Shown piece by piece: positions 4,720 through 29,478 of a stretch of 32,927 nt of DNA. This DNA is from a virus. A program made the position numbers and the translations under genes. The DNA lies in IMG/VR virus record IMGVR_UViG_3300023175_001298, positions 1-32,927 of that record. One strand, 5' to 3'. Every line of letters starts with the position of its first letter. Position 1 is the first letter of the stretch. Under the pieces are notes generated by a model. That model searched no databases. It was not told where the DNA came from and worked only from the letters and a program-made list of their open reading frames with translations.

Positions 4720-5421
4720 ATGAAAATTTTTGTTGTGAGGATTGGCGAGAAATACGGCCAAGAATACGAAGACTACCTAGAATCTAAATTGGGCGACGAT
4801 TACGATCTGATTTGGATTCGTGAACCATATGACAAATCCGTAAAACTTCAATGGAACAAAATGTCTGTGATGAATCTCCCAGACGAAGAACCAGTGTGCG
4901 TAATTGACATAGATTTGCTCCTGATTAACGATTATAAAGAGTGTTTTGATTACCCAGTAGAACGTGGTGAGTTTTTAGCCATGAGAGCGTGGTGGAGAGA
5001 CACACTTCATCCTGATTATACTCTGAATGGTGGATTCTACAAATACTATCCAAAAGACTGCAATTACATTTACGAAAAGTTTATGGCTGATGTAGATCAT
5101 TGGCAGAGTTTGTATATCCAAGCTGGTATCACTAGTGGTCCAGTTAATGGAGAACAGTATTTCGTAGAGGACGCAGTTAAAGAAAAATTAAAACTAATCT
5201 ATATGCCTAATTCATGGCAGTGTAGATGGTTGAGTGATGACGAACTTTCACCTCAAATTTATACTCAGTGGCAAAAACATTTCAATGCAAAGTATACACA
5301 TGCTACTGGTAACGAATACTGTTGGTTTGGAGACTTCCATGAAGATATCAAACTTGTTCATTTCACTCACGAAAACAACCTGCCGCACAGATGGAAATAT
5401 TGGGATCAATATACTAAATGA
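4720..5421 (+). CDS. DxD glycosyltransferase-like protein (GT-A fold)
   Basis: The protein has 233 residues. An N-terminal MKIFVVRIGEKYG strand is followed by V-C-V-I-D-I-D-L-L-L (residues about 59-68), where D63-x-D65 is the metal and sugar-nucleotide binding motif of GT-A glycosyltransferases. L-N-G-G-F-Y-K-Y (about 106-113) matches the acceptor-side glycine motif of related enzymes, and a late V-H-F-T-H block resembles a metal-binding His seen in GT8-like enzymes. It would move a sugar from a nucleotide donor to an unknown acceptor. Its stop overlaps the start of the next glycosyltransferase by four bases (ATGA), indicating coupled translation. It opens the biosynthetic island. Confidence 0.65.
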   Translation: MKIFVVRIGEKYGQEYEDYLESKLGDDYDLIWIREPYDKSVKLQWNKMSVMNLPDEEPVCVIDIDLLLINDYKECFDYPVERGEFLAMRAWWRDTLHPDYTLNGGFYKYYPKDCNYIYEKFMADVDHWQSLYIQAGITSGPVNGEQYFVEDAVKEKLKLIYMPNSWQCRWLSDDELSPQIYTQWQKHFNAKYTHATGNEYCWFGDFHEDIKLVHFTHENNLPHRWKYWDQYTK

Positions 5422-5996
5422 TGAGAGTGATATGTGTTCGTACTGGAACGAAGTATGAAAAGTGGTACGAAGATAATCTGAAACACATGATAGACAATTA
5501 CTCTGGCCTCGAATATGATGAGTTTGTCTGCATTACCGATGACATATATGACGATGTATATGGTGTGTTCAATAAGTTTCAGATGTTTGATAAATATAGA
5601 GACGGACAGAATATTTACTTTGATTTGGACGTTGTGATTAAAGGAGATTGCAACCACTTTTTGAGAGATGAATTTACAGTATGTCACGCACATTGGCGTG
5701 AACCATTCCATACTCCCCTAAATTCTTCTATTATCTCTTGGAAAGGAGATGCATCACATGTTACGGAAACGTTTCATGAAGAAGAGGACTGGTGTTTAAT
5801 GTGGTATAGAAAAGGCATAGATCAATACATCTATGAAAATACTACATTTAATATGTACATGAAGGAAGATAATTACGTGTCTTATTCGACGGTGCCTCAC
5901 GAAACTGATGCGCCTGTATACTTGTTTAATCAACATTACAAAGAACTAAAACGTGAACAAGCTTGGTTTTCAAAATATCTATTAAAGAGAGCGTGA
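5418..5996 (+). CDS. Second DxD glycosyltransferase-like protein
   Basis: The protein has 192 residues and starts MMRVICVRTGTKYEKWYED, an opening like that of its upstream neighbour. N-I-Y-F-D-L-D-V-V-I (residues about 65-74) supplies the DxD motif at D69/D71. L-N-S-S-I-I-S-W-K-G-D follows, equivalent to the neighbour's L-N-G-G segment. The two genes look like distant paralogs. The ATGA overlap at 5418-5421 couples it to the previous gene; a second ATG at 5421 is an equally possible start. Donor and acceptor sugars cannot be told from sequence. Confidence 0.65.
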   Translation: MMRVICVRTGTKYEKWYEDNLKHMIDNYSGLEYDEFVCITDDIYDDVYGVFNKFQMFDKYRDGQNIYFDLDVVIKGDCNHFLRDEFTVCHAHWREPFHTPLNSSIISWKGDASHVTETFHEEEDWCLMWYRKGIDQYIYENTTFNMYMKEDNYVSYSTVPHETDAPVYLFNQHYKELKREQAWFSKYLLKRA

Positions 5997-6004
5997 ATTA
6001 AAAT

Positions 6005-7219
6005 ATGATTAATATTGTTGTGACAAGCAAACCAGTCGATGGACTATTTCTATACAGTTATGAATACTGTGACCTTTTGAATAAAGAGGGTATTAAAGCA
6101 CGTGTAGTTGTTGTGTGCCATAGAAAATATAAACCTTCTGATTATATAAAAGTTATAGAAAGTAAATATATTCATTGTGAAAACATAGTTTTTGATACTG
6201 GGTATGAAAATCTTCTCATAACAATGGTTATGGGTAGAAGCATGATTACTCAAGCTTGGAGAAACTGGAAAGACTATCGTCCAGAACAACAAGATACTTT
6301 AAAAGATTTGTTTTCTAGAAAACTTATTAGTGTATACTCAGAAAACCATCCAACGCAATATCCTATTGCGATAGAATTCTTTAAACCAAAAGAAATTGCT
6401 GATCTTTGTGATCATGATGTATATCCAAATGGTCAAGGTTTGCAATTCGAAAAAAGAATTAACTTTGACATTTACAAAGATTTCCAAGAAGACGTGCAAT
6501 TTGAATATTTGTTCTTAGGAACAAATGAAAGATATTATGAGGTTGCATCTAAGTACCTACCGAAATATCAAGATCATGGCATTATTACATACGATGCGGA
6601 TTGGGTCAATCCTACATTTAATAATGTATTTGTGCCAGTAGATAATTTTTTAGGGTTGTTTAATACATACGTCTACACAAAAGATCATGTGGACCCAGCT
6701 CCTAGAATTATTCAGGAGTGTAAGTATTATGGAAAAGATATGATCTATGAAAGAGAACTAGACGTTGTCGATGGTGGATCTGTATATTGGGAAAGGGAAA
6801 TCGAAACCCCAAAAATTGAACCTATTATAGAAGCGATGAAGAGTCTTATGAAAATACAACCAAGATGCTTATCATTTTTGTTTTCAAAAAATAAACCGCA
6901 CATGGACATCAGTAAAGGCGCAGCGTATACTTCAGATGGATACATGTTGCCTTGTTGTTGGTTAGATGATCCGCCCGTTCACAGATACATCACGGCTTGT
7001 GGATTAAAAGACGAGGAACTTGCACTTGCTAACAATGAAAAACTGGAAGACATCTTTACGTCTGAACAGTGGGAAAACTTTTTTCAAACATTGCTTTGGC
7101 AACCAGAGAATGCATCTTATATGTGTAAGAAAAAGTGTGGTGTAAACATAGACACAGATGCATTAAAAGTAGAAGAAAAAACAGAGGTGGAGTGGCAGTT
7201 TCATGAATCGAGTTACTGA
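6005..7219 (+). CDS. Glycosyltransferase-like protein with C-terminal SPASM-like Cys domain
   Basis: The protein has 404 residues in two parts. Residues 1-260 resemble a GT-B type glycosyltransferase: an alternating beta/alpha start (MINIVVTSKP) and a late DPAPRIIQECKYYGKD block (230-245), typical of the donor-binding half of GT-B enzymes. Residues about 285-380 are Cys-rich: A-Y-T-S-D-G-Y-M-L-P-C-C-W (C317, C318), C332 and C-K-K-K-C-G (C374, C378). This is the pattern of a SPASM/twitch auxiliary iron-sulfur domain, which normally sits at the end of radical SAM enzymes. Here it has no radical SAM core of its own, but the next gene, overlapping by 17 bases, is a radical SAM protein lacking such a domain. 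The two may form a split enzyme. Confidence 0.6.
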   Translation: MINIVVTSKPVDGLFLYSYEYCDLLNKEGIKARVVVVCHRKYKPSDYIKVIESKYIHCENIVFDTGYENLLITMVMGRSMITQAWRNWKDYRPEQQDTLKDLFSRKLISVYSENHPTQYPIAIEFFKPKEIADLCDHDVYPNGQGLQFEKRINFDIYKDFQEDVQFEYLFLGTNERYYEVASKYLPKYQDHGIITYDADWVNPTFNNVFVPVDNFLGLFNTYVYTKDHVDPAPRIIQECKYYGKDMIYERELDVVDGGSVYWEREIETPKIEPIIEAMKSLMKIQPRCLSFLFSKNKPHMDISKGAAYTSDGYMLPCCWLDDPPVHRYITACGLKDEELALANNEKLEDIFTSEQWENFFQTLLWQPENASYMCKKKCGVNIDTDALKVEEKTEVEWQFHESSY

Positions 7220-8033
7220 TTTATATGTGCAAGAACAAAAACGAAGTCGTCCAAACATAGACACTTCTCACAGATGCATTTTTAAGTGCCCGCAATGTAT
7301 TAGACAAAAGAGCACAAGTCAAGAACAGATCCGTAGATCTTTTGACTTGGAACCAGAACAATTTCAGAAAATTCTGGACTATTATGATTACAGTATTACA
7401 TTCTGTGGCCAGATCTCAGATCCAATCTATCACAAAGACTTTTTAAGTCTACTAAGAATGTGTGATGGACAACAGAAAGCTGTGCGGATTGCGACTGTTG
7501 GTAGTGGTAAAAGTGACGAGTGGTGGGAAGAAGCATACAGTTATGGTGTTGGAGAAAACGCTTGGTACTTTGGTGTTGATGGTATTGACGAAAAAAGTGA
7601 GTGGTATCGTGTTGGTTCTAACTTCAAAGAAGTGTGGAGACGTATGCAAGAAGGTAGAGATAAGGGACACTGCATTGTTTGGCAGTATATTATCTTTGGG
7701 TATAACGAACATGAAATTGAAGAAGCACTTGAAATTGCTAAGAAAGAAGACTTTGCATTATTGTTAGTAAACACAAATAGAGGTTTCAGACCAGATAACC
7801 CTTTACTAAGAGATAATGTTAAATTCAAACTGGAAGCCCCCGCATCTAAGTTTAGACAACTTAGAGTCAAAAAAGAATATTGGGCTCATAGAACTGAAGC
7901 GTTGGATAAGTGGCATAAACTTCCAAGAAGACGTTGGTTGAAAATGCAGGAACCCCCAAAGAGTAAACTTCAAATGATTGAAGAAAATGCGCCTTGGAAA
8001 AGACCAGATTGGGACCCCAATAAAAGAGATTGA
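7203..8033 (+). CDS. Radical SAM protein without auxiliary-cluster domain
   Basis: The protein has 276 residues. R-C-I-F-K-C-P-Q-C (C25, C29, C32) is the CxxxCxxC motif that binds the 4Fe-4S cluster used to cleave S-adenosylmethionine. F-C-G-Q-I-S-D-P (about 67-74) stands where the family has a Gly-Gly-Glu-Pro motif, and W-Y-F-G-V-D-G-I-D (about 120-128) is the following core strand. The C-terminus is basic and Trp-rich, with no SPASM cysteines. It overlaps the preceding gene, which carries a SPASM-like tail. Substrate unknown; family members include peptide- and sugar-modifying enzymes. Confidence 0.8.
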   Translation: MNRVTDLYVQEQKRSRPNIDTSHRCIFKCPQCIRQKSTSQEQIRRSFDLEPEQFQKILDYYDYSITFCGQISDPIYHKDFLSLLRMCDGQQKAVRIATVGSGKSDEWWEEAYSYGVGENAWYFGVDGIDEKSEWYRVGSNFKEVWRRMQEGRDKGHCIVWQYIIFGYNEHEIEEALEIAKKEDFALLLVNTNRGFRPDNPLLRDNVKFKLEAPASKFRQLRVKKEYWAHRTEALDKWHKLPRRRWLKMQEPPKSKLQMIEENAPWKRPDWDPNKRD

Positions 8034-9456: not shown

Positions 9457-10041
9457 ATGGCAAAGAAAAATGCAAATCCTGCAAACAACAAATTTAAACC
9501 TACCCCAAAAAATGTACTAATGCTTATTCACATGGAAGGGAAACCAACTATGACTGATGAGTATTCTGAAGCATTGCGGTGGAGTACACTAAGAAAGGTG
9601 GTTTTTGAAAGTAAAAAGAGAATGGTGATCTTGTCCGATCATCATAGAAACTTTGACCACAAGATGAATGAGTTTCGAAAGGTCGTTGAAGAAGCAGGTA
9701 TTCATAAATGGGTTAATATTGATCCAGTAAAGTTCGACAGTATTCTTGAAATAGAAAAGTTGTTGTGGGATGTAAAAACAATTGCTAAAAACGTAATCTT
9801 TGGTGGTACAAACACCAAAGGATGTATTTTAGATGCGACACCGTACTCTGCACTTGCATGGGCTAGAGAAGGACATCAAGTAAAAGTACTTCTTGACATG
9901 TGTACTGAATATGAAGCAGAAGGCGTCACTCAAATGGAAAGAAACAACGTGGCGTTTTCGGAGTTCTGGCGCAAGGCAAAAGAAGCAGGGGTTGTTGAGA
10001 ATATCGATTTTGTCACAGATCTTGCACGAATAAATGACTGA
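9457..10041 (+). CDS. Isochorismatase-like cysteine hydrolase (possibly degenerate)
   Basis: The protein has 194 residues. V-I-F-G-G-T-N-T-K-G-C-I-L-D-A-T (about 112-127) followed by A-L-A-W-A-R-E-G-H-Q-V-K-V-L-L-D resembles the nucleophile-Cys region of isochorismatase-like hydrolases (G-x-x-T-x-x-C-V-x-x-T-A). The N-terminal strand is V-L-M-L-I-H-M-E, where the family usually has I-D-M-Q, so the catalytic Asp position appears to be His (H25). It may therefore be inactive, use another chemistry, or belong to another fold. It lies between two radical SAM paralogs, three bases after the first, and probably acts in the same pathway. Confidence 0.5.
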   Translation: MAKKNANPANNKFKPTPKNVLMLIHMEGKPTMTDEYSEALRWSTLRKVVFESKKRMVILSDHHRNFDHKMNEFRKVVEEAGIHKWVNIDPVKFDSILEIEKLLWDVKTIAKNVIFGGTNTKGCILDATPYSALAWAREGHQVKVLLDMCTEYEAEGVTQMERNNVAFSEFWRKAKEAGVVENIDFVTDLARIND

Positions 10042-10054
10042 GGTATAATAAAAA

Positions 10055-12364
10055 ATGAAAATTACTCATGGCGATCAAACAATTGATTTGTTTCCAAATG
10101 AAATTCCTGAACTTTGTCCTATATCAATATCGGGCGGGTGCGATTCTGCAAGTTTGCTTTATTTGATTTCAAAACATTTTCCTCAAGTGCAATTGGTTCC
10201 TTACACTTGTCGAGATCAAAATGCACCAAAAGATGCGGATGCTGCAAAAGAAATCGTTGAATGGATGCAAAAGAAGTTTCCCGAAAACAACATCCCCCCT
10301 ATTGAAACTTACGACTTCAACGACAAAGATGAAACCTTTATTACTCATGAAGAAGTTGAAGCCATTATGGCAGAAAACGAAACCTTTAAGACTATGAGAA
10401 GAAGACAGGTTTCTAAAATTATTCAAGTTGATAGAATATCTTGGATGATGATGGAACGTGCATTAGAACTTTATCCAGATGCAATCAGAATTGATGCGAT
10501 GACTAGGAATCCTCCTAGCGATGAAATGATGAAATGGGATTTCTATCACAAAGCAGAAAGACGTAGAGATCAAGAACACGATCCTATTGAAGAGTGGAGA
10601 GTGAGTGGTAAATGGGGTCCTTTCAGTATCTATCAACCATACTGTAATGTTGATAAGAAGTTCGTTGCAGGCGTTTATATCGAAAACAATTTGATGCACG
10701 ATCTATTTCCAATTACAAGATCCTGTGTTGGAACTTCGCCTGTGTTGACTGCAAACTTCACTAAAGAGTGTAAACAGTGTTTCTGGTGTGAAGAGAAAGC
10801 ATGGGCATGGGATTGGCCAGTTGGAGATCTTCCAATTGTGTGGAAAGAACTGCCGCCACATTTGATCAAGGGCGGTCCAGGCGATAAGAATACGCCAGGC
10901 AACATTAGTACTTCTGCGTGGTGGAGAAACATGGATGAGAAGGGCGAAATGGTGGCAGCCCAAGATAATTCTATTGTTCAACTTGCAAAAGCAAAAGACA
11001 TATATTTCTGCACCATTCCCTTTACACAGATTTATGCAGAACTAGACGGTATGTACCAAGCATGTTGTTTTGGCGCCTCAAGCGGCGTATCTGTTGAAGA
11101 AGTAGGTCTTGTAGATTGGATGGAGAACAGCGAATACATGAATAGTATTCGTCGTGAAATGACCACGGTTGGATCTGATTTGAAAAACGTAAAAAGAATT
11201 TGTCAGAGGTGTTATACCGATGAGGAAAGATACGGAAGATCAAGAAGAACAAACTGTTTAAAAATTCATACGAACGATCCGCCATTCTGGAATAAGATTG
11301 CTGCTAAGGTTGAGAGATATAGAAAAACTGGTGAATTCAGAATTAAGAACTCTCGCTACATGGATCAAAATTTACGAGGTCCAAGTGAAAGGATCTTTGA
11401 AGTTCAGTTGAAAATCTACGGATCAGAATGTAACCTTGATTGTTATATGTGTGACTACATCAACTCAACTACACGAATGAAGAGTTTGGAAAAGGGTGTT
11501 GTTACGGATAAAGTGTGGCCTTCTTATGTGCATGGAAGACATTCGAACCCGCAGGGTAGACTCATTCAACACGTCATGAAAGATAAAACAGAGGGTACTG
11601 TTGAACAGATCATTCAACTTGCGCCATATATCAAGAGTATTAAAATCATTGGTGGTGAACCTTTGATTATGAAAAAACAATATGAGATGTTGGATGCGTT
11701 GATTGATTCGGGTCATGCGCCAAAAATCTCTTTGAAATATCAAACAAACTTAACAGAGACGAAAGCTGGTAAACATAACCTACTAACCTATATTCCTTAC
11801 TTCGATCACGTTGCAGTGGTTGCATCCGTTGATGGTATTGGTCCTGTAATTGAATACATGCGTCGAAGAACTGATTGGGATAAAGTTGTAAAGAACGTTG
11901 AACTCTGTGGTCAGTTTGACAACGCAGTTGTTGACTTTAATGGTCTGGTGTCTTTCCTTAGTGTTATGCGTTTCTATGAAGTGGTTGATTGGTGCAAAGA
12001 TCATCCTGTGATTGACCAACTTAATTGGGCGATGTTAGAGAACCCACCACATCTAAGAACTAATAACCTTCCACAAGAACTTAAAGATGAATTGATTCCA
12101 AAGTATGAAGAATGGCCTGATATTCAAGCAGCGTTGTCTAGACCGCCAGAACCAGACGTTGATCTTCAGGACATTTTTGATTACCTATTGCTTCAAGATA
12201 AATATTATGAAGGCACTAGATGGGAAATGTCTTTGTTTGATGTTTTCCCAGAGTTAGAGAAGTTCTATGAGAACAGACCTATGACAGATGAAAGAAAAGA
12301 ACTATTTACGTCATGGGGCAAACAAGTTGAAGAATTAGAAAAAGAACACGACAATTTGATATAA
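10055..12364 (+). CDS. Fusion of QueC-like PP-loop ATPase and twitch-radical SAM enzyme
   Basis: The protein has 769 residues. Residues 1-260 form an N-type PP-loop ATPase: S-I-S-G-G-C-D-S (24-31) is the ATP-binding loop, and C224 with C239/C242/C245 (C-K-Q-C-F-W-C) resembles the zinc knuckle of QueC, which builds 7-cyano-7-deazaguanine using ATP. From KGGPGD (272-277) onward the protein is a full copy of the twitch-radical SAM family at 8036-9454: twitch cysteines C319, C337/C338, C383, C386, radical SAM motif C459/C463/C466 and GGEP (533-536). No queD, queE, queF or dpdA homolog is visible in the window, so queuosine synthesis is not implied. ATP-dependent activation of a carboxylate plus radical chemistry in one chain is a plausible reading. 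Confidence 0.85.
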   Translation: MKITHGDQTIDLFPNEIPELCPISISGGCDSASLLYLISKHFPQVQLVPYTCRDQNAPKDADAAKEIVEWMQKKFPENNIPPIETYDFNDKDETFITHEEVEAIMAENETFKTMRRRQVSKIIQVDRISWMMMERALELYPDAIRIDAMTRNPPSDEMMKWDFYHKAERRRDQEHDPIEEWRVSGKWGPFSIYQPYCNVDKKFVAGVYIENNLMHDLFPITRSCVGTSPVLTANFTKECKQCFWCEEKAWAWDWPVGDLPIVWKELPPHLIKGGPGDKNTPGNISTSAWWRNMDEKGEMVAAQDNSIVQLAKAKDIYFCTIPFTQIYAELDGMYQACCFGASSGVSVEEVGLVDWMENSEYMNSIRREMTTVGSDLKNVKRICQRCYTDEERYGRSRRTNCLKIHTNDPPFWNKIAAKVERYRKTGEFRIKNSRYMDQNLRGPSERIFEVQLKIYGSECNLDCYMCDYINSTTRMKSLEKGVVTDKVWPSYVHGRHSNPQGRLIQHVMKDKTEGTVEQIIQLAPYIKSIKIIGGEPLIMKKQYEMLDALIDSGHAPKISLKYQTNLTETKAGKHNLLTYIPYFDHVAVVASVDGIGPVIEYMRRRTDWDKVVKNVELCGQFDNAVVDFNGLVSFLSVMRFYEVVDWCKDHPVIDQLNWAMLENPPHLRTNNLPQELKDELIPKYEEWPDIQAALSRPPEPDVDLQDIFDYLLLQDKYYEGTRWEMSLFDVFPELEKFYENRPMTDERKELFTSWGKQVEELEKEHDNLI

Positions 12365-12429: not shown

Positions 12430-13533
12430 GTGATACCATACGATGCATGGGACCGTGAATATGAAATCAACGAGGGATCATATCACACCCTTTTTGAAAA
12501 GACGATGAAAAAAGACTATGACGGTAAAGTCGATTTCTTGGAAAAGAACATCGAAGTGTTTACTGGTAGGTACTATGCAGTAGGTGTGGCGAACGCAACA
12601 GATGCGTTGTATTTCGCATTGGTAGCGAATGATATTGGATATGGTGACGAAGTTCTGGTTACAAACTTCTCTTGGATTTCTTCTGCGACATGTATCACAC
12701 GTGCGGGCGCAACGCCTGTGTTCTGCGATATTGACCTAGACACATATCATATGTCTTTTGACAGTATTAAACGTATGGTGTCAAAACACACAAGGGCGTT
12801 GATCTACACTCACCTTTTCGGTTCTATGTCAGACACCAGAGAGATTGAAGAATGGTGTAAAGAACACGACATTCTTTTCATAGAGGATGCAGCGCAATCT
12901 CTTGGTTCTTCACTAGACGGACGCAAAGCAGGAACCATTGGTGACTGCAGTGTTTATAGTTTCAATTCAAATAAAGTCGTATCTGGTATCGCTGGTGGTG
13001 GTATGTTCATGACCAACGATAAAGACATGGCAGAAAAAGTACAATCTATGCGTCGACATGGTAAGATCGGAGAAGAGTTTGTAGTACAAAGATCTATGAA
13101 TTCAAAACTATATGTACCTAACGCAGAGGTTATTAATCTAAGACTTAAAAATCTTACAGTATGGCAATCCAAACGACAAGAGATTGCAAAGAAATATGAT
13201 TCTGCATTTAAAGACTTGCCCTTAATTACCCAAGCACAAAAACCTCGTAGTACACTGCAACACAACTATCACAAGTATGTGGTGCGTTTTGAAGATACGG
13301 AAACAAGACACTTTGTGATGCAGGGCATTAAACAATCTAAAAAGTGGAATCCCAAGATTCATTATGATATGGCATTGACTGAAAATAAAGTGTGGGATGG
13401 AGTGGAAATTCGTATGGACGACACACCAAATGCGCTTCACGCTGCACGTACAATCATGTCAGTTCCTATCAATCCATGGCTTACTGAGGACGAAATAAAT
13501 ACAGTTATAGAATCAATTACAGGAATTTTATAA
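12430..13533 (+). CDS. DegT/DnrJ/EryC1 family PLP aminotransferase
   Basis: The protein has 367 residues. It starts with GTG, supported by an AAGGAG ribosome-binding site at 12417-12422, seven bases upstream. V-A-N-A-T-D-A-L (about 53-60), I-E-D-A-A-Q-S-L-G (151-159, with D153 contacting the PLP ring) and S-F-N-S-N-K (177-182, with K182 as the PLP Schiff-base lysine) are diagnostic of DegT aminotransferases. These usually transfer an amino group to a keto-sugar nucleotide to make an amino sugar, sometimes to a cyclitol. Length is normal for the family. It is first in the transcription unit behind the promoter at 12369 and fits modified-sugar synthesis with the neighbouring glycosyltransferases. 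Confidence 0.9.
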   Translation: MIPYDAWDREYEINEGSYHTLFEKTMKKDYDGKVDFLEKNIEVFTGRYYAVGVANATDALYFALVANDIGYGDEVLVTNFSWISSATCITRAGATPVFCDIDLDTYHMSFDSIKRMVSKHTRALIYTHLFGSMSDTREIEEWCKEHDILFIEDAAQSLGSSLDGRKAGTIGDCSVYSFNSNKVVSGIAGGGMFMTNDKDMAEKVQSMRRHGKIGEEFVVQRSMNSKLYVPNAEVINLRLKNLTVWQSKRQEIAKKYDSAFKDLPLITQAQKPRSTLQHNYHKYVVRFEDTETRHFVMQGIKQSKKWNPKIHYDMALTENKVWDGVEIRMDDTPNALHAARTIMSVPINPWLTEDEINTVIESITGIL

Positions 13534-14342
13534 TGAGTTCAGAAGCTTATGGATTGGGTATCGACTTTTACTTAACAAAGTCGTGTAACAAATCCTGTCA
13601 CTACTGCACAGCGTGGACAACAGAGATGCGCAACCTAACAGTGGACATGGAGTTCGCTGCACCCCTATTGGAGTGGTTGAGTCCCTACAATGCACGAATT
13701 AATCTACTTGGCGGAGAACCTGCTCTATGTAAAAACTTAGATGAAGTTATTGCAGAGATTAAGAAGTACCCTAACCTCACACCAGTTGTCCTATCTAACA
13801 GTCTAATAAGGAAGTTTTATCCTCACATCTTAGAAGATCCAGAAGTCCACTATGTAGAACACTTAGTGTTGGACTTTTATGATGATCGTATTGAGAAGTT
13901 GGGTAACTATGACTTCTTTGGCCCAAATGATAATCACAACTATAATCTGATTATCATGACGCCTAACTTTGAAGAGTATAGAAAGAAACATGGGTTGATG
14001 CATCTGTATCACAAAAACACCAAGTTCAAAGAGTACAATTCTAGATCTCCAACTTACGACACATTCGAACAAGAACCAGAGATGACAAGACGCATCTGTT
14101 CTTTGTTTCCTCGTGTTCCAGTTATTGATTTTGAAATCAAAAAAATCAGGCACTGCAGTAAGAAAGTTATTAACGGTTCTCGTCACTTCGATGTTACTAA
14201 AGAAAACATCGACAAGATGATGAACTTTGAATTGTTTGAGTTTGAGAGATATTGTCAGAACTGTGTCGAAAAACTTTCAAGAAGAGAACCCGAAATAGAA
14301 GCTATAATGATGGAAAAGATCCTTGATAGAATGGTGGGTTAA
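13533..14342 (+). CDS. Radical SAM protein with C-terminal cysteine cluster
   Basis: The protein has 269 residues. S-C-N-K-S-C-H-Y-C (C18, C22, C25) is the CxxxCxxC radical SAM motif, and L-L-G-G-E-P-A-L (58-65) is the SAM-amino-group motif. C189, C208 and C241-x-x-C244 near the end suggest a short auxiliary-cluster or zinc site. It is shorter than typical SPASM enzymes. Its start overlaps the aminotransferase stop by one base (TAATG), so the two are translated together. It may oxidise or rearrange the product of the aminotransferase, but no substrate can be read from sequence. Confidence 0.85.
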   Translation: MSSEAYGLGIDFYLTKSCNKSCHYCTAWTTEMRNLTVDMEFAAPLLEWLSPYNARINLLGGEPALCKNLDEVIAEIKKYPNLTPVVLSNSLIRKFYPHILEDPEVHYVEHLVLDFYDDRIEKLGNYDFFGPNDNHNYNLIIMTPNFEEYRKKHGLMHLYHKNTKFKEYNSRSPTYDTFEQEPEMTRRICSLFPRVPVIDFEIKKIRHCSKKVINGSRHFDVTKENIDKMMNFELFEFERYCQNCVEKLSRREPEIEAIMMEKILDRMVG

Positions 14343-15418
14343 TGAAGAAGATTTTTGCGCAACCTTTAAACTTGCACGATCACAATACATTTGATGGAAA
14401 ATATCACATACAATACGAAAGGTACAAAGAGTCTTTTCGTAGAAAACATTGTTATTGGAAATTGAGATACGGCGAGAGCGTCGAACAACAAAGACGTTGG
14501 TATAAAGATCTTGATCAGAAAGTTATAAACGAACAAATTCCTTTTCAAAACATGTATAATGATCTGTGGGATGAAAACGTTGACAACAAGGATGTTGTCT
14601 TTGCAACCAACATTTCAGTCAATGGCGTTAAACTTTATGGAAGAGATAGGTACTTCGAAAAACTAGGAGACTTTGGTGTAGATACGGATACTTACACACC
14701 GAAACACTTGTGGGACGCACTACAGTTCGACAATGTCTATTATGCAGATCATCATCAGTGTCATGCTGCACACACATTCTTAATGTCTGGATATGAAGAA
14801 TCAGACATCTTTGTGATTGATGGACAAGGCAATGTCTTTAGAGCGGTTTTCATTCCATCAGACACACAAGAAATAATTGATCTAAGTGATGACTTACCTA
14901 TTGGTTGGTTGTGGAATGTGATGACACGACTTGCAGGATTTAGTGTTCTTAACGAAGGCAAGTTGATGGGCCTTGCAGGTTATGGAAAACACTCACATAG
15001 ATGGGAAGAAATCTTTCATCTTATGTTTGAAGAGTTTCAAATGAGAGGTGGTAAGTACTGGCCACAAGAGGGGTACTTTGACAAGTTTACTGAAAATAAA
15101 ACTTGGAAAGAAGACATGGCGTTTACCCTTCAAAAATTTACCAACGAAAAAGTTTTAGAAATAATTTTACCATTAAAGACATCCAACAATCTTTGTGTTG
15201 CGGGTGGTGTAACTTATAATGGTTATTTAAATGAAGAGTTTACGAAACATTGGGAAAATGTTCATGTCCCCAATGCGCCTGGCGACGAAGGTCAATCTAT
15301 AGGTCTTTATATGCACTGTGATTATGTTTTAAATAAAAACGTAACTAGTCCCCCTGTGTATGCGGGTAAGGATTGGGAAGTCACAGAAGAGTTGTTTAAA
15401 GATCTAGATCAATGGTAA
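14342..15418 (+). CDS. Carbamoyltransferase-like protein, Kae1-like domain only
   Basis: The protein has 358 residues. A-D-H-H-Q-C-H-A-A-H (135-144) supplies the metal-binding histidines of the Kae1-like domain of NodU/CmcH/TobZ O-carbamoyltransferases. I-D-G-Q-G-N, K-L-M-G-L-A-G-Y-G-K, A-G-G-V-T-Y-N-G and A-P-G-D-E-G-Q-S-I-G follow in family order. The C-terminal YrdC-like domain, which makes carbamoyl-adenylate in TobZ, is missing: the protein ends soon after the Kae1-like part. The next gene, overlapping by seven bases, is a full-length relative with both domains. The short copy may pair with it or serve as a non-catalytic subunit. Confidence 0.8.
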   Translation: MKKIFAQPLNLHDHNTFDGKYHIQYERYKESFRRKHCYWKLRYGESVEQQRRWYKDLDQKVINEQIPFQNMYNDLWDENVDNKDVVFATNISVNGVKLYGRDRYFEKLGDFGVDTDTYTPKHLWDALQFDNVYYADHHQCHAAHTFLMSGYEESDIFVIDGQGNVFRAVFIPSDTQEIIDLSDDLPIGWLWNVMTRLAGFSVLNEGKLMGLAGYGKHSHRWEEIFHLMFEEFQMRGGKYWPQEGYFDKFTENKTWKEDMAFTLQKFTNEKVLEIILPLKTSNNLCVAGGVTYNGYLNEEFTKHWENVHVPNAPGDEGQSIGLYMHCDYVLNKNVTSPPVYAGKDWEVTEELFKDLDQW

Positions 15419-17034
15419 GTGTTATTGGTAGACCTGTACAAAGATCGATTATAGGTGCAGCGGGAACGATGCATGACCAGTCTTGGTATGACGGCGATAT
15501 TCACTGGCAGGCAGAAAGACATACTAGAATAAAAGGTAACCGAAGAAAGAGCGGTTACAAACAAACTGTTTCGGGTTTGTGTACAAGAAAAAAAACTCTT
15601 TACCTTGATACGCAGGAAGAGATATACGAACAGGTATTTCAGTCTTTTCATAATCAATATGAAATCTATGCGTTTACCATGCCTAGAAGAGAAGATAGAT
15701 TTGTATATCCAGAATTTGCAGATCACTTCAATACTATATGGAGATTTGAACCCAAAAAATTATTTGACTATTACCATAAGGATAAAATCTTTTATGCGGA
15801 TCATCACCAATCACATGCAATTTATGCATATCTTCAGAGTGGATTTGAAGAGTGTGATATCTTAGCTGTAGATGGTGGCGCCGCATTGTTTACTAGTTTT
15901 TGGTGCGATTCAGATCAAAACATTACCAACCTAACACCGTTCTTTAATCTTGGTAGAACTTGGATTGCTTGCACTACTGCAGTGGGGTATGTTATGACAT
16001 CAGGCGGTAGAATATGGCAGGATAATGAAACAGGCAAAGTAATGGGTCTTGCGGGTTATGGTAAAGTGCATTGGGGTTTATATGAACTTTTGCATGAAAT
16101 TCTTAAAGATGGTACATCACACCGCAATCTTCCTGATCACGAACACAAGATCATCAAGTATGCACAAGAAAGATTTGTACCCCCTCAAAACATGTCAGCG
16201 ACTATGCAAAAATTAAATGACGATGTTGTTGAGGATCTCGTAACAAAACGTAAGACATCAAAAAACATTTGTGTGAGTGGTGGTGTAGCTTACAATGGTT
16301 ACATGAACGAGATGTTGACTAAGATATATGACAATGTTTTTGTGCCGCCTGCAGTAGGAGATGAGGGACAATCCGTTGGGATTTATATGATGGCAGACTA
16401 TGTCATAAATAATAATGTGCATATTCCAAAAGTGTATGCTGGCATTGAACATGAAGTGAAAGAAGAGATTTTTGTTGGTATGAAATACAAGAAAATGAAT
16501 ATGGATGACATATATCCATTTATTGCAAAACAAATTGCTGGTGGATCTATCGTTGGATGGTATCAAGGTAGATCTGAAAGTGGAAATCGTGCACTAGGAA
16601 ATCGTTCGATCCTTGCGGATCCCAGAAACCCAGATATCAAGGGCATCATCAACGAGAAGATCAAACTCAGAGAAGACTTTAGACCATTCGCTCCTTCAGT
16701 CTTGATTGAGGATTATCAAGAGTGGTTTGATACAAACCAACCCTCACCTTACATGTCACGTATCATGCCTGTGAAGGAAGATAAAAGATCTGTAATACCA
16801 GGCGTGACGCATGTTGACGGAACTGCACGTATTCAGACAGTAGAAAAATCATTCAATGAAAAATATTGGAACGTCATCAATGCGTTCAAAGAAGAGACAG
16901 GCGTCCCTATGCTTTTAAATACGAGTTTCAATTGTCAAGAACCAATTGTAGAAACCCCAGAAGAAGCGCTCGCTACATTCAACAGAGTTGGTTTAGACAT
17001 TTTGGTTATAGAAGATTATGTTGTAGTAAAATGA
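15412..17034 (+). CDS. NodU/CmcH-family carbamoyltransferase, full length
   Basis: The protein has 540 residues. The N-terminal Kae1-like domain carries A-D-H-H-Q-S-H-A (129-136), V-D-G-G-A-A, K-V-M-G-L-A-G-Y-G-K, S-G-G-V-A-Y-N-G and V-G-D-E-G-Q-S-V-G. The C-terminal carbamoyltransferase domain is present: G-W-Y-Q-G-R-S-E-S-G-N-R-A-L-G-N-R-S, then R-E-D-F-R-P-F-A-P-S, and a final L-N-T-S-F-N block. Family members transfer a carbamoyl group from carbamoyl phosphate, through carbamoyl-adenylate, to a hydroxyl on a sugar or antibiotic. It overlaps the shorter relative upstream by seven bases and is itself overlapped by the next gene by four. The pair points to a carbamoylated sugar or small molecule. 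Confidence 0.9.
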   Translation: MVSVIGRPVQRSIIGAAGTMHDQSWYDGDIHWQAERHTRIKGNRRKSGYKQTVSGLCTRKKTLYLDTQEEIYEQVFQSFHNQYEIYAFTMPRREDRFVYPEFADHFNTIWRFEPKKLFDYYHKDKIFYADHHQSHAIYAYLQSGFEECDILAVDGGAALFTSFWCDSDQNITNLTPFFNLGRTWIACTTAVGYVMTSGGRIWQDNETGKVMGLAGYGKVHWGLYELLHEILKDGTSHRNLPDHEHKIIKYAQERFVPPQNMSATMQKLNDDVVEDLVTKRKTSKNICVSGGVAYNGYMNEMLTKIYDNVFVPPAVGDEGQSVGIYMMADYVINNNVHIPKVYAGIEHEVKEEIFVGMKYKKMNMDDIYPFIAKQIAGGSIVGWYQGRSESGNRALGNRSILADPRNPDIKGIINEKIKLREDFRPFAPSVLIEDYQEWFDTNQPSPYMSRIMPVKEDKRSVIPGVTHVDGTARIQTVEKSFNEKYWNVINAFKEETGVPMLLNTSFNCQEPIVETPEEALATFNRVGLDILVIEDYVVVK

Positions 17035-17702
17035 TTGACTTATACAATAACACTATTGATATCGACTACATGAACAGAATCGTTCATATATCTCAGAGGT
17101 TCCCAGAAAAAGCGACTGAATTGTGGGACTCTGTTAGCCCTAATCAATTTATTTCGAAAAAAGAACTCTTGACAACTGTGTTAGAAAGTGGTATACTATC
17201 TAAAGATTTGTCAGTAACAATTATAGGATCTTGGTTTGGTTCTATTTTGGTTCCTGTGTTGGCTCCGCTTGTAAAGGACATCATATGTTTTGATATCGAT
17301 GAAGAGGCGGGACACATTGCTACACAGTTACACAAATATGACAATGTTATTTTTAGTAAACAAGATTTATCTAAACAGAGAGTTAAAACATTACAAGACG
17401 CAAACGATTTGTTAGTTATAAACACTTCCTGTGAACACATGGATGATATGATTGACATTATGCACCTACAGCATTTGAATCCAAAATACAAACAAAATCC
17501 AAGAAACATTTGGATTGCATGTCAATCGAATAACATGTTGGATATAGAAGGTCATATAAACTGCGTTTCGTCCATGAAAGAATTTAAATTGCAAATGCCT
17601 ATGGAGGCAAAAATTTTAAAGGAAATGGAAATAGGAGAAGAAAGAGGTATAAGATATTTCATTTTTGGAATGATACCTCACAGAAAGGAACCAAATGAGT
17701 AA
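17031..17702 (+). CDS. Rossmann-fold methyltransferase-like protein
   Basis: The protein has 223 residues from the ATG at 17031, which overlaps the preceding stop as ATGA. The frame is open further upstream, but that extension lies inside the carbamoyltransferase gene and is rejected. V-T-I-I-G-S-W-F-G-S (62-71) is a plausible SAM-binding glycine motif I, and I-C-F-D-I-D (85-90) a motif II acidic end. L-V-I-N-T-S-C-E-H-M follows at the motif IV position. The order and spacing fit a class I SAM-dependent methyltransferase, although the GxGxG motif is atypical. It is the last island gene before the heme oxygenase and overlaps it by eight bases. Confidence 0.6.
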   Translation: MIDLYNNTIDIDYMNRIVHISQRFPEKATELWDSVSPNQFISKKELLTTVLESGILSKDLSVTIIGSWFGSILVPVLAPLVKDIICFDIDEEAGHIATQLHKYDNVIFSKQDLSKQRVKTLQDANDLLVINTSCEHMDDMIDIMHLQHLNPKYKQNPRNIWIACQSNNMLDIEGHINCVSSMKEFKLQMPMEAKILKEMEIGEERGIRYFIFGMIPHRKEPNE

Positions 17703-18237
17703 TCTAAAAGAACTTACATGGGAACATCACGAAAGAGCAGAACAGTCACCATTTGCATCTTTGCTTATGAGTGGAGATATCGAACCTAAAGATTATCAAA
17801 AGTATCTTTTCAATCAGATGATCTGTTATGGTGCATTAGAAGGAGCGGTGGATCTGCCAGAACCATGGCGTGGTGTGTTCCGTGCAGACGCAATCTTTCA
17901 AGATATGCAAGAACTGATGAAAGAGTATAACCTTTCTCCTATCGAAAAGGCGTTAGATACTACTGTCGAATACGTAGGTTACATTGAAGGAATTAAAAAC
18001 GATAATCATAAACTTCTTGCACACTTATATGTACGTCACTTTGGTGACCTACATGGCGGTCAAATGATTAAGAAGAAGGTGCCAGGCAGTGGTAAGTACT
18101 ACGATTTCGAACATCGTTATGAATTGATCAAGGGTCTTCGTTCGTTACTTGATGACTCTATGGCAGATGAAGCAAGAATTTGTTTTGATTTCGCATTTCG
18201 TTCTTTTGAAGAGTTGAGTAATGAACCACAAGGATAA
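17695..18237 (+). CDS. hemO: Heme oxygenase
   Basis: The protein has 180 residues. It would open heme to biliverdin IX-alpha with release of iron and CO. The N-terminal L-K-E-L-T-W-E-H-H-E-R-A-E (4-16) matches the proximal-histidine helix of heme oxygenases, with H12 the likely iron ligand. H-F-G-D-L-H-G-G-Q (116-124) matches the distal helix; the usual D-L-S-G-G-Q has His for Ser. The length is on the short side, as in phage and some bacterial enzymes. It is followed, with a 17-base overlap, by a bilin reductase that can use its product. Similar pairs are known as auxiliary metabolic genes in marine phages. Confidence 0.9.
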   Translation: MSNLKELTWEHHERAEQSPFASLLMSGDIEPKDYQKYLFNQMICYGALEGAVDLPEPWRGVFRADAIFQDMQELMKEYNLSPIEKALDTTVEYVGYIEGIKNDNHKLLAHLYVRHFGDLHGGQMIKKKVPGSGKYYDFEHRYELIKGLRSLLDDSMADEARICFDFAFRSFEELSNEPQG

Positions 18238-18898
18238 ACTGAAAGAATTCGCTGAGAACATAAGTAGTATATTCGATGAACACTTAATTTCGTATGAAAA
18301 TCCTCTACACGTCCAAGAGTTTGATGGATGGAAAGACGATTTTTGGAAATCAGATCTCATCGAAAAATGTCATTTGAAAACAATTGACTTGCTAGAAGAA
18401 CGACGATTGTGGTTACTGCACTTAAATGTCTTCCCAAAATCTGGATGGGATCTTCCTATCCTTGGATGTGACATTGTTGCAGGACCAAACAAAATCAGCG
18501 GTGCATTTTTTGACTTCTCTCCTGTCGTTCATGATGATCACGTTATGTGTAAACATTTCAATGAAGAGACACAAAAGTTTACTTGGAAGAAACCTCGTGA
18601 ACTTCCAGACTGGGCTAAAGAGATCTTCAGTGATCACATGATGGCTGTGGGTAATGTAAGAGAAGAAGAAACTGATAAATTTTTGCTTGCAACTTCTGAA
18701 TTAATATGTTATTATATGGATAATATGAATCACCAAGCAGTGCAGGTTGATTTCCCTACTAGGGATCTACTCAACAAGTATTGTATAAACCAAAAAAAGA
18801 ATCATCAGTTGCACAATAGTATCCTTGCTATGGGTATTAGTGAGGAAGACAAAGATTATTATGTGAATAACATATTATTTCAGGAGATAGAAGATTAA
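18221..18898 (+). CDS. pcyX: Ferredoxin-dependent bilin reductase, PcyX-like
   Basis: The protein has 225 residues. V-F-P-K-S-G-W-D-L-P-I-L-G-C-D (70-84) and G-A-F-F-D-F-S-P-V (94-102) are the core signature of the ferredoxin-dependent bilin reductase family (PcyA, PebA, PebB, PebS, PcyX). D98 is the likely catalytic proton-donor Asp. The family reduces biliverdin to an open-chain bilin such as phycoerythrobilin or phycocyanobilin using ferredoxin. The name PcyX is proposed because a heme oxygenase/PcyX pair has been described from uncultured oceanic phages thought to infect Alphaproteobacteria; assignment to PcyX rather than PebS needs a tree. Why such a host would need a bilin is unknown. 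Confidence 0.85.
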   Translation: MNHKDKLKEFAENISSIFDEHLISYENPLHVQEFDGWKDDFWKSDLIEKCHLKTIDLLEERRLWLLHLNVFPKSGWDLPILGCDIVAGPNKISGAFFDFSPVVHDDHVMCKHFNEETQKFTWKKPRELPDWAKEIFSDHMMAVGNVREEETDKFLLATSELICYYMDNMNHQAVQVDFPTRDLLNKYCINQKKNHQLHNSILAMGISEEDKDYYVNNILFQEIED

Positions 18899-27383: not shown

Positions 27384-28078
27384 CAAAGGAAATAGATCCT
27401 CATAAGTATCCAAAACATGCTTCGGATGAAGTAAAAAACACACGAGATTATCGTACTTGGATATTTGATGGGGTCTATAGAAACTTTGCATGGCGCATGG
27501 AAGGACGCAATCAAGAATCACGTAGTGGGCCAGGGTCGGAACTTGGGTATACAAAGAACTTACGTGAAAAACTGCCATTGATGTTTAGTCAATTTGGTAT
27601 CAACAGTATGTTGGATGCACCATGTGGAGATATGAACTGGATGATAGAAGTTCTGAAAGAATGTCCAATTGAATATACAGGTGGCGACATTGTTTCTGAA
27701 ATGATACAAGACAATAAAGATAAATATCCAGAATACAAATTTTTAGAGTTGGATGTTGTAGAAGACGAATTACCTTACGCAGATTTATTTTTCTGTAGAG
27801 ATCTATTCTTTCACTTGCACAATGATATATGTTTGAAGATAATTGAAAACTATTTGAGGTCTGAAATACCTTATATTTGTTTGACAACGAATAAAAATAT
27901 ATTACATAGAAGTGCTTCAAACATATATGTGAATTGTGGTGAATTTAGATTGATAGATATATTCGAAGAACCATTTAACTTTCCAAAAGAAGTTCTATAT
28001 ACTATAGATGATACACCAGAGGGTAGTCGATACCCCGCAAAAGATATGGTACTATTAAGAAGAGAGCAACTGTTATGA
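27380..28078 (+). CDS. Second class I SAM-dependent methyltransferase
   Basis: The protein has 232 residues. M-L-D-A-P-C-G-D-M-N-W-M (77-88) is motif I with the C-G-D variant, Y-T-G-G-D-I-V motif II, and A-D-L-F-F-C-R-D-L-F-F-H-L a motif IV-like strand. It differs from the neighbouring methyltransferase in sequence and is not a recent duplicate. Overlaps of four bases with both neighbours indicate one transcript. The substrate is unknown but probably belongs to the same glycan or small molecule as the adjacent transferases. Confidence 0.82.
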   Translation: MTKEIDPHKYPKHASDEVKNTRDYRTWIFDGVYRNFAWRMEGRNQESRSGPGSELGYTKNLREKLPLMFSQFGINSMLDAPCGDMNWMIEVLKECPIEYTGGDIVSEMIQDNKDKYPEYKFLELDVVEDELPYADLFFCRDLFFHLHNDICLKIIENYLRSEIPYICLTTNKNILHRSASNIYVNCGEFRLIDIFEEPFNFPKEVLYTIDDTPEGSRYPAKDMVLLRREQLL

Positions 28079-28725
28079 ATATCGAAAAGAAAATCACACA
28101 GATTTGGATTGGGCCCAATCCTGCGCCTATGAAATGGATGAATACGTGGAAAGAAAAACACCCAGAGTGGGAGTATGAGATTTTCACAGATGAAATGTTG
28201 CACCAACGCAAGTGGATGAATCAACATCTCATTGAACACTATTATAATACAAAGAAGTATTGTGGGGTTTCTGATCTCATTCGATACGAACTCTTACTTG
28301 AACGTGGTGGGTTTTTCCCAGAAGCTGATATGGAGTGTCTAGAAAACACCGATGAGTTGTGGATCTCTGAACCGCACAAAGCGTATACTTGTTATGAGAA
28401 CGAATTGTATCGTGCAAATTTTGTTCAACCAATTCTTGCGTGTAACCCAGGCAATATGTTTGTTCGTATGTTGGTTGAAACTCTACACCAACTTCGTGCA
28501 GATCAACTCGCACCAGAACCTTTCAGATCGACAGGTAACGAGTTCCTAAGTCGTTTGGTGCAGGACAACATGTATCATTTGAAGATTTTCCCTTCACATT
28601 ATTTCATTCCTCAGTTCTATGTGCGTGAATCTAAACGTTATGATGGCGACGATAAGGTCTATGCAGAACATCATTGGGGGTCAACAGGGATGCCTTGGAC
28701 ACAGCAGTACTCAACTGCAACTTGA
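28075..28725 (+). CDS. GT32-like glycosyltransferase
   Basis: The protein has 216 residues. I-T-Q-I-W-I-G-P-N-P (7-16) is the typical first strand of the DXD-sugar-binding GT32 family. S-D-L-I-R-Y-E-L-L-L-E-R-G-G-F-F (66-81) is its most conserved segment. The motif that follows is usually Y-x-D-x-D; here it is P-E-A-D-M-E-C (82-88), so the first Asp is Glu. This substitution could preserve metal binding. It would add a sugar to an unknown acceptor. Part of the second decoration cassette. Confidence 0.75.
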   Translation: MNIEKKITQIWIGPNPAPMKWMNTWKEKHPEWEYEIFTDEMLHQRKWMNQHLIEHYYNTKKYCGVSDLIRYELLLERGGFFPEADMECLENTDELWISEPHKAYTCYENELYRANFVQPILACNPGNMFVRMLVETLHQLRADQLAPEPFRSTGNEFLSRLVQDNMYHLKIFPSHYFIPQFYVRESKRYDGDDKVYAEHHWGSTGMPWTQQYSTAT

Positions 28726-28728
28726 TCG

Positions 28729-29478
28729 ATGTACATATCTCCAAAATATAAATTCATATTTCTCAGAGTTCCGAAGACTGCTAGTACCAGTCTATCGGAA
28801 TTCTTTATTCGTAATATAGATGATCCCGATGCAATATACACAGAAGTGGAAGATGCTAAAATTGATGGTACTCTCTCTGAAGAAAAACTCACAGAGATTA
28901 GAGGAACTCACGAAAACTACCACCCCTTCAAACATCTCCATTTAAATTTAAAACAACTTGTCGAGTATGACATTATCACTGATGAACAAGCCAGAACATA
29001 TCGTTCCGTAGCGGTTCTTAGAGATCCTATCGAAAGACAAAAGAGTTTTTATTACTTCTTTAAACGTTGGGATAAGGATCTGAAAAGTAAACCATACAGT
29101 TTGGCAGAGTACAAATACATGGCTCCACGTGGATGGTTCGATGCAGATAAAGCAACAGGAGAAGACAATTCTAAATTGTTGCAGTCTGATTTCCTTCTTT
29201 ATGATGGAAAGATTCGTGGTGAATATTGGTTATATGAAAACCTTTTGGATCATATACAGTCCTTTATAGAGGACAATGATCTATCAATAAAACATAAACT
29301 GCAAAATCATAAAAATCAATATAGAGTGGATAGAATAGATGCATCTAAAGAAATTCACTTTGATTATGAAGCATTGGGACCAATAAAAGATTATTTTGAA
29401 AAAGATTTAAACCTCTATACGACAATAAAGAAGAAACATTATGCAGACACAACTAGCTTACATACTCAGAATCAATAA
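28729..29478 (+). CDS. Sulfotransferase family protein
   Basis: The protein has 249 residues. F-L-R-V-P-K-T-A-S-T-S-L (11-22) is the 5'-phosphosulfate loop of PAPS-dependent sulfotransferases, with K16, T17 and S19-S21. A-V-L-R-D-P-I-E-R-Q-K-S-F-Y (95-108) is the 3'-phosphate-binding segment, with R98 and S106. These two motifs in this order and spacing are diagnostic. It would transfer sulfate from PAPS to a sugar or other hydroxyl. It overlaps the following glycosyltransferase by 38 bases. No PAPS-synthesis genes are in the window, so the donor presumably comes from the host. Confidence 0.82.
   Translation: MYISPKYKFIFLRVPKTASTSLSEFFIRNIDDPDAIYTEVEDAKIDGTLSEEKLTEIRGTHENYHPFKHLHLNLKQLVEYDIITDEQARTYRSVAVLRDPIERQKSFYYFFKRWDKDLKSKPYSLAEYKYMAPRGWFDADKATGEDNSKLLQSDFLLYDGKIRGEYWLYENLLDHIQSFIEDNDLSIKHKLQNHKNQYRVDRIDASKEIHFDYEALGPIKDYFEKDLNLYTTIKKKHYADTTSLHTQNQ

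Follow-up and report, generated by a model that had tools for sequence, protein, structure and literature searches.

A QueC-like PP-loop domain joined to an N-twitch radical SAM protein in a conserved island of uncultured marine T4-like phages

The 32,927-base virus record analysed here (the window) encodes, in one uninterrupted frame, a protein in which a QueC-like PP-loop domain (P) is joined to a complete N-terminal-twitch radical SAM protein (N). The fusion is a genuine single gene with both sets of active-site residues intact. It represents one state of a partnership that more often takes the form of two adjacent genes, and P and N have been fused more than once. In uncultured marine T4-like phages the two genes belong, as an optional module, to a widespread and conserved biosynthetic island. 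Radical SAM genes are abundant in some marine T4-like phages, with function unassigned in the available parts of the papers describing them (PMC7029224, PMC5332604). A recurrent QueC-like partner and its repeated fusion provide a specific clue to the role of some of these enzymes.

The fused gene and its two domains

The virus record carries T4-type replication genes (helicase loader, ssDNA-binding protein, UvsX and a DnaB-like helicase), and the fusion-bearing virus is an uncultured marine T4-like phage. A search of viromes for the same fusion, as suggested in an earlier sequence-only reading of this DNA, was productive. The identical ORF was found in two other IMG/VR records (L001 and L002), inside exact matches of 3,335 and 4,854 bp, and diverged fusions, with identities down to ~60%, were found in further IMG/VR contigs. 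These include L003-L009, at 68-82% identity, and a more distant group comprising L031/32/43, L036-39 and L044/45. The SGGxDS, Cys4, KGGPGD and CxxxCxxC motifs are seen in 16 of the 17 fused ORFs; in the remaining one, L036, the contig end precedes CxxxCxxC.

It might be argued that the two halves were joined only by an error of assembly or annotation, or that the frame is a chance read-through with no function. Split P and N genes are indeed frequent, and the P protein of L026, which is situated next to the fused L009 in the P tree, ends just past KGGPGD and is a decayed fusion. Against this, the same ORF is present in three records and diverged fusions in at least nine more, both active sites are intact, and pN/pS values are low: 0.11-0.29 in the P, twitch and radical SAM domains and 0.20-0.50 in the short linker, so that all four segments are under purifying selection. 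The chance that the join is spurious is thus negligible. Homologs are not always two separate genes, and the independent fused records rule out an assembly join at the domain boundary.

The features of the fusion and of the neighbouring genes are listed in Table 1.

Table 1. Coordinates of the fused gene, its parts and the island genes in the window
Feature	Position	Strand	Basis
Island genes 'a' (4720-5421) and 'b' (5418-5996)	4720..5996	+	Recurrent in relatives and in Mosig
Island gene 'S': domain possibly glycosyltransferase-like, plus SPASM-like domain	6005..7219	+	Weak SPASM match
Island gene 'r': radical SAM protein without a SPASM domain of its own	7203..8033	+	Pfam search, neighbour clustering
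Paralogous N-twitch radical SAM protein, no PP-loop	8030..9454	+	NF033640, 298 bits
Island gene 'I': conserved GGTNTxGC protein	9457..10041	+	27 of 57 dereplicated loci
PP-loop/N-twitch radical SAM fusion protein	10055..12364	+	769 aa
PP-loop (QueC-like ATP pyrophosphatase) domain, residues 1-255	10055..10819	+	Pfam QueC, hhalign, AF2, Foldseek
SGGCDS pyrophosphate-binding loop, residues 26-31	10130..10147	+	S26, G27, G28, D30 and S31 invariant in 44 diverse homologs
Cys4 site C224, C239, C242, C245 (predicted Zn)	10724..10789	+	Conservation in 44 homologs; alignment to QueC zinc site
KGGPGD, residues 272-277, at the junction	10868..10885	+	Native N-terminal motif of stand-alone N proteins
N-terminal twitch domain (C319, C337, C383, C386); predicted auxiliary [4Fe-4S]	11006..11344	+	97 of 97 homologs
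Radical SAM core: CNLDCYMC (C459, C463, C466), GGEP (533-536)	11408..12274	+	Pfam/NCBIfam matches, homolog alignment
Island gene 'D': DegT/PseC-like PLP aminotransferase	12430..13533	+	Pfam 7.5e-78; 40 of 57 loci
Island gene 'R': short radical SAM protein (viperin/QueE/MoaA-like)	13533..14342	+	40 of 57 loci
Island gene 'C': NodU-type carbamoyltransferase, N-terminal domain only	14342..15418	+	Pfam
Island gene 'C': NodU-type carbamoyltransferase, complete	15412..17034	+	39 of 57 loci

A Pfam/NCBIfam search of the fusion revealed a QueC-like signal at residues 25-72, and Pfam QueC was the commonest family match among P homologs (39 of 44, with E values up to 0.01). The P domain of the window scores 21.2 bits against PF06508, for which the gathering score is 22 bits; the homolog in L033 exceeds it at 25.5 bits. 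Profile comparison of P with canonical QueC using hhalign gave a probability of 94.6% (E value 7e-8), the C-terminal part being aligned and the PF(x)4K-type lysine and the Cys4 site being covered. In a search of a defence library, the split P of L018 matched QueC weakly (E value 0.017).

The pyrophosphate-binding loop, which bears the SGGxDS signature of the QueC family, and the four-Cys knuckle lie where the sequence-only reading placed them, as judged from the frame translation and the homolog alignment. Among the 44 homologs C224, C242 and C245 are invariant, and C239 is conserved in at least 90%. The spacing is C224-x14-C239-x2-C242-x2-C245; that of the QueC family is C-x8-C-x2-C-x2-C, so the first gap is longer in P. 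The correspondence of the two sites suggests that P probably binds zinc here.

The motifs by which QueC binds deazaguanine have been defined as YxQxHxxE, VPxRN and YPDC (PMC13329287), and the canonical QueC proteins checked alongside P carry all three. In P they are replaced by PYTxRDxNAPxD, a VSKI-type segment and TRNPP, respectively; YxQxHxxE and YPDC are substituted in all 45 of the P homologs listed. The earlier description of the domain as QueC-like is therefore true of its scaffold, on the evidence of the profile and the Cys4 site, but not of its function. QatC, which likewise lacks these motifs, fails to restore queuosine (PMC13329287). A tblastn search with the P domain against 50,697 annotated phage records returned no match, so a close relative is absent from the isolates in that collection.

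The second half of the protein (residues 318-738) matches NCBIfam NF033640 (N_Twi_rSAM) at 268 bits, with a cut-off of 170, over profile positions 4-398 of 398; the sequence-only reading of a complete N-twitch radical SAM protein is thus borne out. The three cysteines of CxxxCxxC and the four twitch cysteines are present in 97 of 97 N homologs, from which two [4Fe-4S] clusters and SAM cleavage are predicted. To our knowledge, no function is known for the NF033640 family. Searches of PDB profiles with N and with the island proteins S and I found nothing. The paralog upstream, as claimed previously, corresponds to the second half only, is 40% identical to it and has KGGPGD near its start. Among stand-alone N proteins, GGPGD lies within the first 90 aa in 64 of 86. 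The junction thus retains, as KGGPGD, the region with which a stand-alone N natively starts, so the fusion consists of two complete proteins joined together. N-type genes can be numerous: record G016 (locus L043) contains nine N-twitch radical SAM matches and G030 (locus L038) seven, several of them in tandem. Another candidate domain fusion was observed in L061 (930-3074), where an ORF of 715 residues resembles N-twitch proteins in its second half and also has an S-type match.

AlphaFold models the P domain alone with a pLDDT of 94.8. For the 769-residue chain, whose structure prediction had also been proposed, the value is 88.9, and it falls below 50 only at the linker (residues 263-273) and the last three residues. 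The top Foldseek matches of the P model are all PP-loop enzymes, in agreement with a PP-loop fold. With the whole chain, PP-loop and viperin/SkfB structures ranked weakly and no function was singled out. The pTM is 0.70, the linker is of low confidence and there is no sign of a fixed P-N interface; channelling between the two domains is therefore unproven.

Split and fused arrangements of P and N

A profile scan identified 432 viral stretches encoding relatives of P. In a dereplicated set of 74 P genes, 10 are fused, 11 adjacent in the order P-N and 13 adjacent in the order N-P. Fusion to N or direct adjacency, in both orders, thus accounts for 34 of the 74, about half, and was seen in phages and in MAGs of Bdellovibrionia, Chloroflexi and Acidimicrobia. 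Separate genes in the order P-N occur, for example, in L025, L027-L030, L041 and L046, and in the order N-P in L018, L048, L062, L070 and L083. Among 44 dereplicated loci fetched by P alone, 37 have N in the same stretch. Adjacency of P and N was counted 21 times, against a mean of 11.8 in shuffled gene orders, and this count was reached in 9 of 5000 shuffles, related loci not being independent.

Several P-N pairs consist of overlapping genes (ATGA in both L025 and L029), so a small indel would be enough to fuse them. The P tree requires four changes of the fused state, at least three of which are forced by well-supported branches; the fused L044, for example, is placed next to the split L041 and far from the group of the window. 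P and N are not obligate partners, since each also occurs without the other: N with no P in sight in L010-L017, and P without N in L077 and L066. One further phage lineage, L033, L034 and L035 (L035:10264-11637), shows an independent fusion, in which P is joined to another kind of radical SAM protein (r-type) that has homologs encoded as single genes at other places in the islands.

P is sporadic in cells: a set of 84,980 species genomes yielded 17 loci. Some are probably phage contigs binned into MAGs; others are situated on long Bdellovibrionia contigs, again near N genes. Strong, full-length P was found in 5 of 192 Bdellovibrionota genomes, the remaining matches of that survey being many, weak and confined to the loop. 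The Bdellovibrionia genomes with P also carry a separate canonical QueC.

The surrounding island

The island genes of the window are contiguous or overlapping, and around the fusion no gap exceeds 65 bp. The DegT protein (D) is closest to the PseC/LegC nucleotide-sugar aminotransferases, and the short radical SAM protein R is 57% identical to its counterpart in the pelagiphage Mosig. Neighbour clustering also placed a GDSL-like protein in 32 of 57 dereplicated loci and two nitroreductase-type clusters in 26 and 18 of the 57; the second of these scores above the Pfam Nitroreductase cut-off and the first was assigned by similarity to a gene annotated in Mosig. The products of genes a and b look glycosyltransferase-like by inspection only, a having no Pfam match, and the glycosyltransferase-like island genes in general are mostly without Pfam support. 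No Pfam match above the cut-off was obtained for I.

The cultured pelagiphage Mosig EXVC030M has the same island, with nitroreductases, split radical SAM and SPASM genes, GDSL, DegT, R, carbamoyltransferase and glycosyltransferase-like genes. Neither P nor N was found in the 24.7-kb stretch of Mosig that was covered, and for this reason P is regarded as an optional module of the island.

Several other arrangements were observed in the window. Gene S is a second fusion within the island, in which a conserved domain of ~285 residues is joined to the SPASM-like domain. Both parts are two genes in L025, L018 and Mosig, where the matching radical SAM half is a third gene; the island usually has r and S as a split radical SAM/SPASM pair. 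The NodU-type carbamoyltransferase genes stand in tandem (14342-17034), the one with the N-terminal domain only coming first. Beside the island (17695-18898) lie a heme oxygenase gene (PF01126, 7.7e-17) and then one for a ferredoxin-dependent bilin reductase (PF05996, 4.8e-20). Downstream of the replication genes (28075-29478), a DXD glycosyltransferase (PF04488) and a sulfotransferase (PF03567) are encoded.

Possible chemistry and comparison with known systems

Where a PP-loop enzyme has a QueC-type site, it adenylates its substrate at a carboxylate (or carbonyl oxygen) and then adds nitrogen; radical SAM enzymes of the twitch type use one auxiliary cluster in oxidising or rearranging a C-H site. 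The joining of P to N suggests two steps on one substrate, and the companions of the pair (a PseC/LegC-like aminotransferase, an O-carbamoyltransferase, nitroreductases and glycosyltransferase-like proteins) suggest a decorated amino sugar. Our preferred reading, which is put forward tentatively, is that the fused pair is a two-domain enzyme combining radical chemistry with ATP-dependent ligation, and that the product of the island may serve to modify a surface glycan. N, with its putative auxiliary [4Fe-4S] cluster, would abstract hydrogen from a C-H site, the simplest role being that of a dehydrogenase or a rearranging oxidase. P, as a QueC-type ATP pyrophosphatase with a Cys4 site that is probably zinc-bound, would adenylate the substrate, most likely at a carboxylate, and hand it to a nitrogen nucleophile to give an amide or similar group. 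The sequence-only reading had placed ATP activation ahead of the radical step. That order does not follow from the sequence: domain order along a chain is uninformative as to reaction order, and the precedent of QueE followed by QueC runs the opposite way; by that analogy the radical step might come first and the ATP step second. We infer that the substrate is a sugar-linked or small-molecule compound, and the end product may be an unusual sugar, or a group linked to a sugar, with amino, carbamoyl and amide functions, used to modify either a host surface glycan, against co-infection, or a virion glycan. It is more doubtful whether the fusion amounts to a new enzyme class, with ATP adenylation/ligation and radical SAM chemistry acting sequentially on one substrate in one chain, central to a phage pathway to a carbamoylated amino-sugar-type product that is widespread in marine T4-like phages. 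Should a new modified sugar prove to be the product, phage chemistry on host or virion surfaces would be revealed.

SPASM and twitch radical SAM enzymes often work on peptides, and Cap9 and QatC act with a partner protein (a CD-NTase or QatB) that has an unstructured N-terminus with a glycine motif. The fusion and the P and N pairs could accordingly modify a ribosomal peptide or a phage or host protein, with N as a maturase and P conjugating onto a protein terminus. The weak matches of the paralog to peptide maturases (PapB, mycofactocin) fit this suggestion, as do the appearance of Cap9 (9nto, TMt 0.65) among the Foldseek matches of P, the presence of as many as nine N-type matches per record, and the repurposing of QueC-family enzymes for N-terminal protein conjugation (PMC13279940, PMC13329287), as in Cap9 and probably QatC. 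Nevertheless, we consider it unlikely: the deazaguanine motifs of Cap9 and QueC are missing, and QueD was found in none of 24 P-bearing records; DegT, carbamoyltransferase and nitroreductases indicate small-molecule or sugar chemistry; and a gene for a precursor peptide has hardly any room in the compact island of the window. Were it correct, the story of QueC turned to protein conjugation would reach the phages themselves. Either way, the P-N pairs are testable protein pairs.

Sulfur transfer is less probable again. Here P would resemble TtuA, NcsA or LarE, with an iron-sulfur cluster in the Cys site, and the fusion would produce a thio-compound in addition to performing radical chemistry. 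TtuA, NcsA and LarE are among the best Foldseek matches of P besides ligases, with TtuA and NcsA high in the list, and profile matches to ThiI, NcsA and TtuA were obtained. The TM-scores to all PP-loop structures are, however, alike and low (about 0.4), so the ranking does not discriminate; the profile and motif order fit the QueC zinc site, C..CxxCxxC with a preceding PF(x)4K-type lysine, and the predominance of QueC among the Pfam matches argues in the same direction. A place in a deazaguanine (preQ0-type) pathway of DNA or tRNA modification, which a radical SAM and a QueC-like domain recall through QueE and QueC, was rejected and has very little probability left. P has lost the motifs for recognising CDG (PMC13329287), N is of the twitch type and is not QueE, and QueD (PF01242) was found in 0 of 24 P-bearing phage records, many of them fragments, in keeping with the earlier remark that no other deazaguanine genes are visible. 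Canonical QueC was absent from nine P-bearing phage records. Cytosine-carbamoyl modification of DNA is likewise unsupported: a thymidylate-synthase-family gene occurs in 1 of the 24 records, many being fragments, and has stops inside. With the absence of QueD, this argues against the known DNA-base pathways. The probability that remains beyond these readings belongs to something unlisted.

Several known systems resemble parts of what is described here. QueC (PF06508), QatC and Cap9 share with P the SGGxDS loop, the C-terminal Cys4, the PF(x)4K-type lysine and the order of these elements; P differs in that all three CDG-recognition motifs are replaced, in being usually longer than QueC, and in being fused to or paired with an N-twitch radical SAM protein, with QueD absent from 24 P-bearing records. 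The pair QueE-QueC also sets a radical SAM protein beside a PP-loop enzyme, but N and P are distinct from QueE and QueC, respectively, and the analogy is one of reaction logic only. With the N-twitch subfamily NF033640 the fusion shares a full-length match and the invariant CxxxCxxC, GGEP and four twitch cysteines; it differs in the PP-loop ATPase at its N-terminus, and the family is without a sequence-detectable solved relative. The 5-hydroxymethylcytosine carbamoyltransferase detected in phages by MetaGPA co-occurs with thymidylate synthase (PMC8670742); a phage-encoded carbamoyltransferase is common to both cases, but here 23 of the 24 P-bearing records yielded no thymidylate synthase gene.

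A search of the open-access literature returned no paper on a PP-loop/radical SAM fusion or on this island. The closest genomic precedents are the pelagimyophages, in which radical SAM cassettes lie in a host-recognition island and GT8 glycosyltransferases have been proposed to alter the host O-chain (PMC7029224), and a marine genome of T4-like type in which 12 radical SAM genes are present (PMC5332604). As far as the available parts of these two papers extend, their phages are likewise marine and T4-like, with many radical SAM genes and glycosyltransferases, but no PP-loop partner, fusion or conserved DegT/carbamoyltransferase order is named. Thus both domain families were known, as was, from those parts, the abundance of radical SAM genes in such phages (PMC5332604, PMC7029224); what is new with respect to the literature searched is the PP-loop partner, its repeated fusion and the conserved order of the island.
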